A DNA stretch of 64,000 nt. It comes from Sphingobium xanthum (GTDB lineage Bacteria > Pseudomonadota > Alphaproteobacteria > Sphingomonadales > Sphingomonadaceae). Of this stretch, positions 11,753 to 14,818 are shown piece by piece (position 1 is the stretch's first letter; each line of letters begins with the position of its first letter). The notes under the pieces were generated by a model, which was given only the letters and a program-made list of their open reading frames with translations, had not been told where the DNA came from and searched no databases. The DNA is taken from positions 124,001-188,000 of the forward strand of contig NZ_JAHKKS010000008.1 of assembly GCF_019737615.1 (NCBI RefSeq), written 5' to 3'. A program made the translations under genes and the position numbers.

Positions 11753-13153
11753 TCAGATATGGATCGGCTTGCCCTGCACTGCCATCGCCGCTTCCTTCAC
11801 CGCCTCGTTGTGCGTCGGATGCGCGTGGCAGGTATAGGCGATGTCCTCGGAGGTCGCGCCGAATTCCATGGCCTGCGCGGCCTGCGCGATCATCGTGCCG
11901 GCCGGTGCCGCGATGATCCAGACGCCGAGCACCTTGTCGCTGGCCGCATCGGCGATGATCTTCACGAAGCCTTCGGTCTCGGCGATCGCCTTGGCGCGGC
12001 TGTTCGCGAGCATCGGGAACTTGCCGATCTTGACCTCGCCGCGCTCCTTCGCCTGCTCCTCGGTGAGGCCGACGCCGGCAATCTCCGGATGCGTATAGAC
12101 GACGCTCGGGATCACATCGTGATTCACGAGGCCGGTGAGGCCGGCGATATTCTCGGCGACGGCAATGCCCTCGTCCTCTGACTTGTGCGCCAGCATCGGG
12201 CCGGGGATGACGTCGCCGACCGCCCAGATACCGGGCACCTTGGTGGCGAATTCGTGGTCGGTCTCGATCTGACCGCGCTTGTTGAGCTCCAGGCCGATCT
12301 TGTCGAGGCCGAGGCCTTCCGTGTTCGGCCGGCGGCCAATGGCGACCAGCACGGCATCGGCCTCGATCGTCTCGACCGCGCCGCCCGCGGCCGGCTCGAC
12401 GGTGACGGTGGCCTTCTTGCCCTTGACGGAGACGCCGGTGACCTTGGTCGAGGTCTTGATCTCGAAGCCCTGCTTCGCGAAGAGCTTGGCCGCTTCCTTG
12501 CGGACTTCGCCGTCCATTCCCGGCAGAATCTGGTCGAGAAACTCGACGACGGTCACTTTCGCGCCGAGGCGCTGCCAGACCGATCCGAGCTCCAGCCCGA
12601 TGACGCCGCCGCCAATGACGACGAGATGGCCGGGCACCTTCTTGAACGAGAGTGCGCCGGTCGAATCGACCACGATGCCCTTGTCGTTATCGACCGCGAC
12701 GCCCGGCAGCGGCGTGACGCTCGATCCGGTCGCGATGATGATATTCTTCGCGGTGACGCTCTTGCCGGCGACCTCCACCGTGTGCGCGTCCTTGAAGGTC
12801 GCGTGCGCCTTCAGCCAGTCGATCTTGTTCTTCTTGAACAGATACTCGATGCCGCCGGTGAGACCGGTGACGGCCTTGTCCTTGTCCGCCAGCATCGTCG
12901 GCAGGTCCAGTTCGACATTGCCGAGCTTCACGCCATGCTTGGCGAGCGCACCGCTCTTGGCCTCGTGAAACAGCTCGGAGGCGTTCAGCAGCGCCTTGGA
13001 CGGGATGCAGCCGACATTGAGGCAGGTGCCGCCCAGCGTCTCGCGACTCTCGGCGCAGGCCGTCTTGAGACCGAGCTGCGCCGCCCGGATCGCCGCGACA
13101 TAACCGCCCGGCCCGGAACCGATCACGAGGACGTCATAGTCGTAGTCAGCCAT
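11753..13153 (-). CDS. lpdA: Dihydrolipoyl dehydrogenase (E3)
   Basis: A 466-residue flavoprotein disulfide reductase that reoxidises dihydrolipoyl groups of the 2-oxoglutarate dehydrogenase complex, given its place at the end of the sucA-odhB operon. VIGSGPGGYVAAIRAAQLG is the FAD loop, GGTCLNVGCIPSK holds the redox-active cysteines near residues 42-47, and HAHPTHNEA near the C terminus contains the catalytic His-Glu pair. An ATG four codons earlier (13165) exists, but a GGAG is better spaced for the start at 13153. Confidence 0.95.
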   Translation of the reverse strand: MADYDYDVLVIGSGPGGYVAAIRAAQLGLKTACAESRETLGGTCLNVGCIPSKALLNASELFHEAKSGALAKHGVKLGNVELDLPTMLADKDKAVTGLTGGIEYLFKKNKIDWLKAHATFKDAHTVEVAGKSVTAKNIIIATGSSVTPLPGVAVDNDKGIVVDSTGALSFKKVPGHLVVIGGGVIGLELGSVWQRLGAKVTVVEFLDQILPGMDGEVRKEAAKLFAKQGFEIKTSTKVTGVSVKGKKATVTVEPAAGGAVETIEADAVLVAIGRRPNTEGLGLDKIGLELNKRGQIETDHEFATKVPGIWAVGDVIPGPMLAHKSEDEGIAVAENIAGLTGLVNHDVIPSVVYTHPEIAGVGLTEEQAKERGEVKIGKFPMLANSRAKAIAETEGFVKIIADAASDKVLGVWIIAAPAGTMIAQAAQAMEFGATSEDIAYTCHAHPTHNEAVKEAAMAVQGKPIHI

Positions 13154-13179
13154 TGCGTACTCCATCGAACGTTCCGGTG

Positions 13180-13197
13180 TTCCTGCGAAGGCAGGAA
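13180..13197. repeat. Small palindrome left of the GIY-YIG gene
   Basis: TTCCTGC-GAAG-GCAGGAA, seven-base arms with a four-base loop. It is the inverted counterpart of the palindrome at 13516-13533, and together they bracket the GIY-YIG gene. Confidence 0.7.
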
Positions 13198-13204
13198 CCC
13201 ATCG

Positions 13205-13474
13205 CTACGCTGCAATATCGGGCCACAGATCGATCCATTCGCGATTGCACTCGTGGATCAATCTTATTTTCCAGGCCCGCTTCCATTTCTTGATCTGCAA
13301 TTCGCGCAATCGCGCTTCCTGCAGGTCATCATGCGCTTCGTACCAGACCAGCATCCGACAGCCATATTGCTTGCTGAAACCGTCGATCAGACCTTCGCGA
13401 TGCTGATAGCAGCGCTGCAGCAGCTCACTTGTCACGCCCAGATAGAGTGTGCCGTTGCGCTTGCTAGCCATCAT
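13205..13474 (-). CDS. GIY-YIG nuclease superfamily protein, possibly N-terminally damaged
   Basis: A standalone GIY-YIG domain of 89 residues by the first ATG at 13474, related to the small YhbQ-type proteins of unknown role. The core is visible: LYLGVTSELLQRCYQHREG, then the EAHDDLQEARLRELQIKKWKR helix with the conserved glutamate. The first half of the signature (GIY, here FVY) is encoded just upstream of 13474 in the same frame, but with no ATG, GTG or TTG before it. Either a non-standard start is used or the gene has lost its beginning. Palindromic repeats flank it inside the odh operon, suggesting a mobile cassette. Confidence 0.75.
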   Translation of the reverse strand: MMASKRNGTLYLGVTSELLQRCYQHREGLIDGFSKQYGCRMLVWYEAHDDLQEARLRELQIKKWKRAWKIRLIHECNREWIDLWPDIAA

Positions 13475-13515
13475 GTAAACGAAGCCGCGTTTCGTTACCG
13501 CCCCCGTCGCTTGGG

Positions 13516-13533
13516 CTCCTGCCTTCGCAGGAG
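13516..13533. repeat. Small palindrome right of the GIY-YIG gene
   Basis: CTCCTGC-CTTC-GCAGGAG, the same element as at 13180-13197 in opposite orientation (loop CTTC against GAAG) with one arm change. It lies ten bases after the odhB stop on the minus strand. Confidence 0.7.
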
Positions 13534-13543
13534 TACTGTTACA

Positions 13544-14818
13544 TCAAAGATCGATCAGCAGTCGCGTCGGGTCCTCGATCGCATTCTTGATCGCGACGAG
13601 GAAGGTGACGGCCTCGCGCCCATCAACCAGGCGATGATCGTAGCTCAGCGCCAGATACATCATCGGGCGGACCACGACCTGGCCGTTCACGACGACGGCG
13701 CGGTCCTCGATGCGGTGGAGGCCCAGCACGCCGGACTGCGGCGGATTGATGATCGGCGTCGACATCAGGCTGCCGAACACGCCGCCGTTGGAGATGGTGA
13801 AGGTGCCACCGGCCATGTCGGCCATGGTGAGCGTGCCATCCTTCGCCTTCTTGCCGAATTCGCCGATGGTCTTCTCGATCTCGGCGATGCTCAGGCTCTC
13901 GGCGTTGCGGATCACGGGCACGACCAGGCCGTTGGGCGCGGAGACGGCGACCGAGATGTCGCAGAAATCATTGTAGATGATCTCGTCGCCCTCGATCTGG
14001 CCGTTGACGCCCGGAATGTCCTTGAGCGCCATGCAGGCGGCCTTCACGAAGAAGCCCATGAAGCCCAGGCGCACGCCGTGCTTCTTCTCGAACAGGTCCT
14101 TGTACTTGGTGCGCGCCGCGATGACGGCGGTCATGTCGACATCGTTGAAGGTGGTCAGGATCGCGGCATTGTTCTGCGCTTCCTTGAGCCGCTTGGCGAC
14201 GGTCTGGCGCAGGCGCGTCATCTTGACGCGCTCCTGATGGCGCGACGGGTCACCGGCGGCGGCAGGCGCAGCGGCGGCAGGTGCCGCGCTGGGCACAGCA
14301 GCGGCAACCGCCGTGCCGGCCGATATGGCGGCCATCACATCGTCCTTGGTCAGGCGGCCGTCCTTGCCGGTGCCCGGGATGCGGCTCGGATCGAGGCCAT
14401 GCTCCAGCACCAGACGGCGCACGGCCGGAGACAAGGTGATCGACCCGCCATCGGCCTCGACCGCCGGAGCGGCAGCGGGTGCAGCCACGGGAGCCGGCGC
14501 AGGTGCCGGAGCGGGCGCAGGCGCCGCCTCGGTCTTGACCGGCGCAGGTGCAGCGCTTTCCGCCTTGGCAGCAGGTGCGCCACCGGCTTCGACGGTCGCG
14601 ATCACCGCGCCGACATTCACCGTGTCGCCTTCCTTGACGAGTTGTTCGCCCATCACGCCGGCAACCGGCGAGGGCACTTCCACGGCGACCTTGTCGGTCT
14701 CCAGGCTGGCGATCGGCTCGTCGATCTTCACGGCATCGCCGGGCTTCTTCAGCCACTGGCCGACGGTCGCTTCGGTGACGGATTCGCCCAGCGTTGGCAC
14801 TTTGACTTCGGTGGCCAT
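13544..14818 (-). CDS. odhB: 2-oxoglutarate dehydrogenase E2, dihydrolipoyl succinyltransferase
   Basis: The 424-residue core subunit of the 2-oxoglutarate dehydrogenase complex. One lipoyl domain (residues 1-77) carries the lipoylated K43 in ETDKVAVEV. An alanine-proline-rich linker (about 80-125) leads to the peripheral-subunit-binding domain ([21 protein letters not shown]), a second linker and the catalytic domain ending in [13 protein letters not shown] with the active-site histidine. The gene follows sucA by 30 bases. The GIY-YIG gene separates it from lpdA. Confidence 0.96.

Follow-up and report, generated by a model that had tools for sequence, protein, structure and literature searches.

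In the 64,000-nucleotide stretch of the Sphingobium xanthum genome analysed here (the window), a small GIY-YIG gene interrupts the order odhA-odhB-lpdA on the minus strand, the names of these neighbours being our reading of their translations. Upstream of it lies odhB (2-oxoglutarate dehydrogenase E2; 13544..14818, minus strand), for which orthologues were also found, and downstream lpdA (dihydrolipoyl dehydrogenase; 11753..13165, minus strand). The whole cassette between them (13177..13536) consists of a palindrome, the gene and a second palindrome, a layout that recurs between odhB and lpdA in relatives. The left unit (13179..13201, plus strand) has an 8-bp stem, a GAAG loop and the tail CCA facing inward; the right unit (13512..13533, minus strand) has the opposite orientation, a 7-bp stem, the same loop and again an inward-facing CCA tail. 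The palindromes themselves read TTCCTGC-GAAG-GCAGGAA (13180-13197) and CTCCTGC-CTTC-GCAGGAG (13516-13533). An inverted-repeat search returned a single pair, with arms at 13181-13201 and 13512-13532 that are 95% complementary and separated by 310 nt. With up to two mismatches, the 16-mer of the palindrome has two copies in the 64-kb window, both at the cassette, where 0.12 would be expected, and none of 100 shuffled sequences reached two copies. The frame between the palindromes matches the GIY-YIG family PF01541 (E 3.6e-15), so that the description from which we started, a sequence-only reading of a GIY-YIG gene bracketed by inverted palindromes between odhB and lpdA, is correct in its sequences, its inverted pair and its gene.

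The GIY-YIG frame (13205..13498, minus strand) comprises 97 residues and a stop codon when counted from a GTA codon at 13498. No in-frame ATG, GTG or TTG was found upstream of 13474, the position of its first ATG, and a start there would drop the GIY strand and cut into the domain. The orthologue in genome G051 carries GTG where the window copy has GTA. The start codon of the window copy has thus probably been lost, judging from this comparison, and the copy may be dead, since it is without a usable start. The frame runs open through the right palindrome (13205-13543).

The gene family itself is under purifying selection, with dN/dS values of 0.046-0.309 in ten close pairs. Y8, Y19, R29 and E66 (numbered from the GTA codon) are invariant in 39 aligned sequences, and the family shows the GIY and YIG tyrosines, the central arginine and the C-terminal glutamate that passages of PMC1564403 give as the motif of the GIY-YIG superfamily. 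A Pfam search of the window protein detected no domain besides PF01541. The AlphaFold2 model of the frame has a mean pLDDT of 96.2, and a structure search with this model returned the UPF0213 protein 1zg2 as the best match (E 9.8e-4; 23% identity), followed by Slx1 structures with weak E-values. UPF0213-like GIY-YIG proteins (PDB 1zg2, 1ywl), which we take to be YhbQ-like, are the closest solved proteins in both sequence and fold, and distant ones at this identity; in the open-licence literature searched, no palindrome link of such proteins is described. The likeness of the window protein to Slx1, the nuclease of the Slx1-Slx4 pair acting on branched DNA and its second-best fold match, suggests a hairpin or cruciform substrate. 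Slx1 is a eukaryotic protein that acts with a partner, and to our knowledge it is not tied to repeats. The catalytic domain and a selfish-element logic are shared with GIY-YIG homing endonucleases, but here no extra DNA-binding domain accompanies PF01541, and the gene lies between intact genes rather than within an intron.

The palindrome is a repeat of the source genome. An exact search of the 4.06-Mb sequence found 26 copies of its 14-base core and none of the reversed control; with up to two mismatches 63 units are listed, a count that also takes in units of the TCCCGC family, which differ at two positions. Of the 63 units, 44 are arranged heads-out with a partner no more than 90 bp away (22 pairs, against one other close pair), and in 13 of the 22 the spacing is exactly 53 nt. 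This layout is that of REPINs, and most of the units form inverted dimers in one orientation, as CGTC-tagged REPs do. Four GIY-YIG matches are present in the source genome, one in a 643-aa open frame that we read as UvrC-like and three in small genes. All three small genes lie within a palindrome pair of their own, and the three pairs belong to different families: the CCTGC type of the window, GTCATTCCCGC..GCGGGAATCCAG and GTCATGCTGAA..TTCAGCATCC. The second family is likewise repeated in this genome (8 matches to a general pattern), as is the third (13 matches with up to two mismatches).

Small GIY-YIG loci were gathered from the family, from the class and from a named genome collection, the last contributing the best 80 of 586 confirmed candidates (alpha-, beta-, gamma- and deltaproteobacteria, Planctomycetes and Anaerolineae); none of these samples is random, all having been ranked on how similar the loci were to the query and without regard to flanks. 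With two profile models the 223 loci separated cleanly into 186 of type ii, the window's kind, and 37 of type i. Removal of identical copies left 183 and 37, and enough flanking sequence was available for 180 and 37. At an inverted-repeat score of at least 14 (a threshold chosen by us, like the regular expressions used below), flanking inverted repeats were found at 134 of the 180 type ii loci, compared with 2 of 569 positions drawn at random within these loci, and at 31 of the 37 type i loci, compared with 0 of 120; the remaining 46 type ii loci had no flanking pair at this threshold. Similar counts came from the 80-locus set alone (51/77 versus 3/770 random positions, three loci with short flanks having been dropped). 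In the same set, a control centred on genes with trimmed ends found 48 of 72 GIY-YIG genes flanked, compared with 10 of 893 other ORFs. With mechanical ORF ends the figures were 19 of 77 GIY-overlapping ORFs and 6 of 995 others, which we think is an undercount because such ORFs can cross palindromes or be antisense. The association of gene and palindromes and its class specificity are, in our view, near certain. The sequence-only reading had proposed a search for further GIY-YIG genes with the same kind of flanks, and these exist in number; palindromes scattered without any link to such genes, which would have spoken against it, are not what the data show.

Type i loci were dropped as an unflanked negative control when the inverted-repeat score found another palindrome class beside them, no matched hairpin pair having appeared there in a perfect-stem hairpin scan. 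Since type i thus proved to be flanked, random positions and other ORFs were taken as controls instead. At four loci (L104, L143, L152, L162) the flanks are longer composite inverted repeats that contain palindromes of different stem.

Palindromes of this kind might be transcription terminators or mRNA-stability hairpins, lying around the gene simply because REPs are crowded into intergenic DNA in general. The cassette does lie within an operon, and REPs are reported (PMC3733652) to occur mainly downstream of genes and in many cases to be plausibly transcribed. However, flanking palindromes are far rarer around the remaining ORFs of these loci than around GIY-YIG genes (10/893 versus 48/72, as above); moreover, the upstream arm could not terminate the gene, and the pairing of palindrome class with protein clade described next is not predicted. 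We therefore consider this explanation most unlikely.

The two protein types differ in the palindromes that flank them. CGTC-type hairpins lie on both sides of 93 of the 180 type ii genes and of none of the 37 type i genes, and the GAGC..GTCGA class lies on both sides of 28 of the 37 type i genes and of none of the 180 type ii genes. The GAGC..GTCGA motif occurs on one side only at 11 of the 180 type ii loci, about the same share as at their random positions (32/569). By our strict expressions 38 of the 180 type ii loci, including that of the window, have neither motif, and strong inverted repeats with other stems occur at many of the 38. Type i forms a single clade in the protein tree, with all 37 tips included and a support of 0.999. 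The correlation of protein similarity with similarity of the 5' stem is only weak within type ii (Mantel r 0.18, with 1 of 1000 permutations as high). The source genome contains 12 units of the GAGC..GTCGA class but no type i gene.

CGTC-tagged REPs were catalogued in 2013 across five phyla, mainly in alphaproteobacteria (Di Nocera et al., PMC3733652), and the traits given there are a stem of 8-9, a loop of 4-5, the tail CCA and an arrangement in paired dimers. Near the 134 flanked type ii genes we picked 204 units, requiring at least two of the four head letters and at least two of the four tail letters. Of these, 172 have a stem of 8 or 9 and 180 have a loop of 4 or 5; among the units so selected the head was CGTC in 128 and TGTC in 31, and the tail CCA in 154. 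The nearest unit pair was heads-out at 52 of the 90 type ii genes for which both units were called. The units flanking most type ii genes are CGTC REPs. Four organisms that Di Nocera et al. name were checked, Azospirillum lipoferum 4B, Novosphingobium aromaticivorans, Sinorhizobium meliloti (with a CCTC-like head) and Neisseria gonorrhoeae, and each has a type ii gene with CGTC-REP-like flanks. Among five further loci checked, those of Aeromonas and Shinella were flanked and those of Photobacterium and Rhizobium K1/93 were not; the GIY-YIG locus of Rhizobium CIAT894 has an inverted repeat that is longer and of another kind. The window's own family shares the stem (8 in the left unit, 7 in the right), the loop (4 in both), the CCA inward of both stems and the dimer layout of CGTC-tagged REPs, but not their head: neither CGTC nor TGTC or CCTC stands unpaired at the head of the window units and their REPINs, which read GTGTTCC or GTGCTCC.

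That the cassette has inverted ends, is small and is present at some sites and absent from others would also fit a small insertion element or MITE of the ordinary kind, mobilised by an unrelated transposase, with the GIY-YIG gene as a passenger. However, one and the same gene family is the cargo again and again, in alpha-, beta- and gammaproteobacteria and other lineages, and its two clades each have their own palindrome class. Di Nocera et al. sought transposases flanked by CGTC repeats and, in the passages of PMC3733652 concerned, report none. A passenger role is thus very unlikely, and we return to the nuclease itself as the putative partner of the palindromes.

To follow the cassette among relatives, odhB was searched in 59 genomes and 30 loci were fetched. 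By our tally the GIY-YIG cassette occupies the odhB-lpdA gap at 5 of these loci and gene-less palindrome pairs occupy it at 7; at 4 the gap is at most 15 bp long and at 14 it contains other sequence, so that the empty sites that had been proposed as a check do occur. Besides the window, the cassette is present at this site in G051, G046, G023 and G024, and in four genomes found outside the 30-locus set (G061, G071, G095, G082), altogether in at least seven genera. The copies in G024 and G071 are frame-broken. The intact proteins from the odh site group in a single clade (support 0.928) that takes in all 8 tips, two of them from the same genome. Both palindromes match within each genome, and the stem varies between genomes and genera (CCTGC or CCGGC); in G023 one side is mixed in stem type. 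Because seven genera hold the cassette at the same place as one protein clade, it has been inherited at the odhB-lpdA site, and the window copy accordingly gives no sign of recent movement. The proposal of a mobile cassette thus holds in that gene and palindromes form a unit, but not in the sense of a recent arrival. It had also been called non-autonomous; the gene-less pairs are more likely to be the non-autonomous parts, with the gene cassette as their driver.

A difference between closer relatives is found in Azospirillum. A type ii gene separates sufB from sufC in A. lipoferum 4B and is flanked on either side by a complete palindrome pair, and the sufB-sufC gap is free of the cassette in A. 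ramasamyi (91 bp), A. oryzae (87 bp) and Azospirillum sp. B510 (129 bp), which are 95-96% identical to A. lipoferum 4B over the matched parts. The difference is a gain or loss between close relatives. At this locus of the suf operon (L344, 2352-2968) the gene is bracketed by two complete pairs and not by single palindromes. In the comparison of syntenic loci no clean insertion borders or target-site duplications were readable, because the intergenic DNA is too diverged. Pairs of Rhizobium plasmids showed one palindrome-bearing indel, away from the gene.

At the level of genomes, the gene is patchy: 209 of 389 alphaproteobacterial genomes have a match at E <= 0.001, and by our count 143 of them have one at E <= 1e-15, in a class-wide search that scored up to 14 candidates per genome. 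The CGTC pattern GTCAYYCCSGCNNNNGCSGGRRYCCA is present in 80 of the 389 genomes, namely in 59 of the 143 with a type ii match at E <= 1e-15 compared with 21 of the 246 without (Fisher p 5.6e-14, the genome counts taking no account of relatedness). A recheck of these 21 exceptions with PF01541 revealed in most of them only long UvrC-like frames, which indicates that CGTC-type repeats persist without the gene. High numbers of CGTC-type repeats are found in genomes with only UvrC-length matches (93 in G318, 66 in G377, 57 in G246, 49 in G426); these are either orphan families or served by another enzyme. The other class, in the form CCTGAGCNTGTCGAAGG, occurs in 25 of 31 genomes with a type i gene versus 5 of 29 in which PF01541 matched once (UvrC only), a comparison that covers 60 of 119 genomes, the remaining 59 being unclassified. 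CCTGC-type repeats are numerous in G049 (35), G004 (18) and G078 (14), where a CCTGC-flanked gene was not seen. Where a genome has few copies, the CCTGC palindrome is often located at type ii genes: such a gene is present in 7 of 20 regions fetched around its copies, which represent part of these copies, with four cases at odhB-lpdA and three at other places. In one region of G049 (L321), two opposite CCTGC-type units at C1:1379593 and 1379630 fall within the coding range of odhB (C1:1378888-1380150), and this palindrome pair thus sits inside the gene.

Genomes rich in repeats but devoid of the gene, the vertical inheritance of the odh cassette, purifying selection and the Slx1-like fold would all be expected if the protein were a domesticated housekeeping nuclease that trims or resolves palindrome hairpins and cruciforms, its gene being kept beside its own substrate and the palindromes being spread by other means. 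A resolvase, however, needs no substrate of its own on both flanks of its gene, no separate clade for each palindrome class and no several genes per genome in different palindrome families, and the patchy occurrence of the gene (the 209 of 389 genomes given above) also argues against a housekeeping role. We regard this explanation as unlikely, if less so than the other rivals.

Our preferred reading is that the gene encodes a REP-associated GIY-YIG nuclease and that families of short genomic palindromes have their cognate enzymes in stand-alone GIY-YIG proteins some 95 residues long, which we think probable. On this reading each gene sits within a pair of its own palindrome, the same palindrome being present elsewhere as gene-less, heads-out, REPIN-like pairs. 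The two palindromes would form hairpins by extrusion, either in single-stranded DNA or in a cruciform; the nuclease would recognise the cognate hairpin and nick at its foot, as an Slx1-like enzyme might, and nicking would allow palindrome pairs to leave their site or be copied elsewhere and would keep the palindrome family homogeneous. The gene-bearing pair would be the master and the gene-less pairs its dependents, like RAYTs and REPINs, and the odhB-lpdA cassette is now a fixed, inherited resident. Cleavage and movement by the nuclease are what we infer from these patterns: that it acts on its palindromes is likely, and that it spreads them rather than trimming them alone is somewhat the better supposition.

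The parallel with the REPIN/RAYT system is close in organisation. There, too, short heads-out palindrome pairs are scattered genome-wide (PMC3733652), each palindrome family has a single enzyme gene bracketed by the family's palindrome, and several such families can share a genome; heads-out pairs forming a genome family and an enzyme gene flanked by the same palindromes are likewise what we observe. The enzyme of that system, however, is a tyrosine (Y1 HUH) transposase and its heads are GTAG, in contrast to a GIY-YIG nuclease with PF01541 as the sole domain found and to CGTC-like or other heads here. Lacking a tyrosine transposase, the GIY-YIG/palindrome system is not a member of REPIN/RAYT.

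The 2013 catalogue states that CGTC-tagged repeats "apparently lack a dedicated transposase" (PMC3733652), and its main text contains no mention of GIY. A search of the open-licence literature in PubMed Central (bioRxiv and most subscription papers being outside its scope) found no link of GIY-YIG genes to REPs. The type ii gene family is the obvious candidate enzyme for CGTC-tagged repeats. Whether the two stand-alone GIY-YIG clades are the missing mobilising enzymes of CGTC-tagged REPs, those of Neisseria included, and of the GTCCTGAGCTTGTCGAAGGAC class is a wider claim, for which we see about as much reason to believe as to doubt. The candidate matches the CGTC repeats in flanks, class specificity and genome distribution, and the question left in 2013 is now testable. 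If our reading is true, bacteria would possess a repeat-spreading system independent in origin from the RAYT transposases, in which spreading would run on structure-specific hairpin cutting by a protein of 95 residues, and a large set of small GIY-YIG proteins annotated by their domain alone would have a role.
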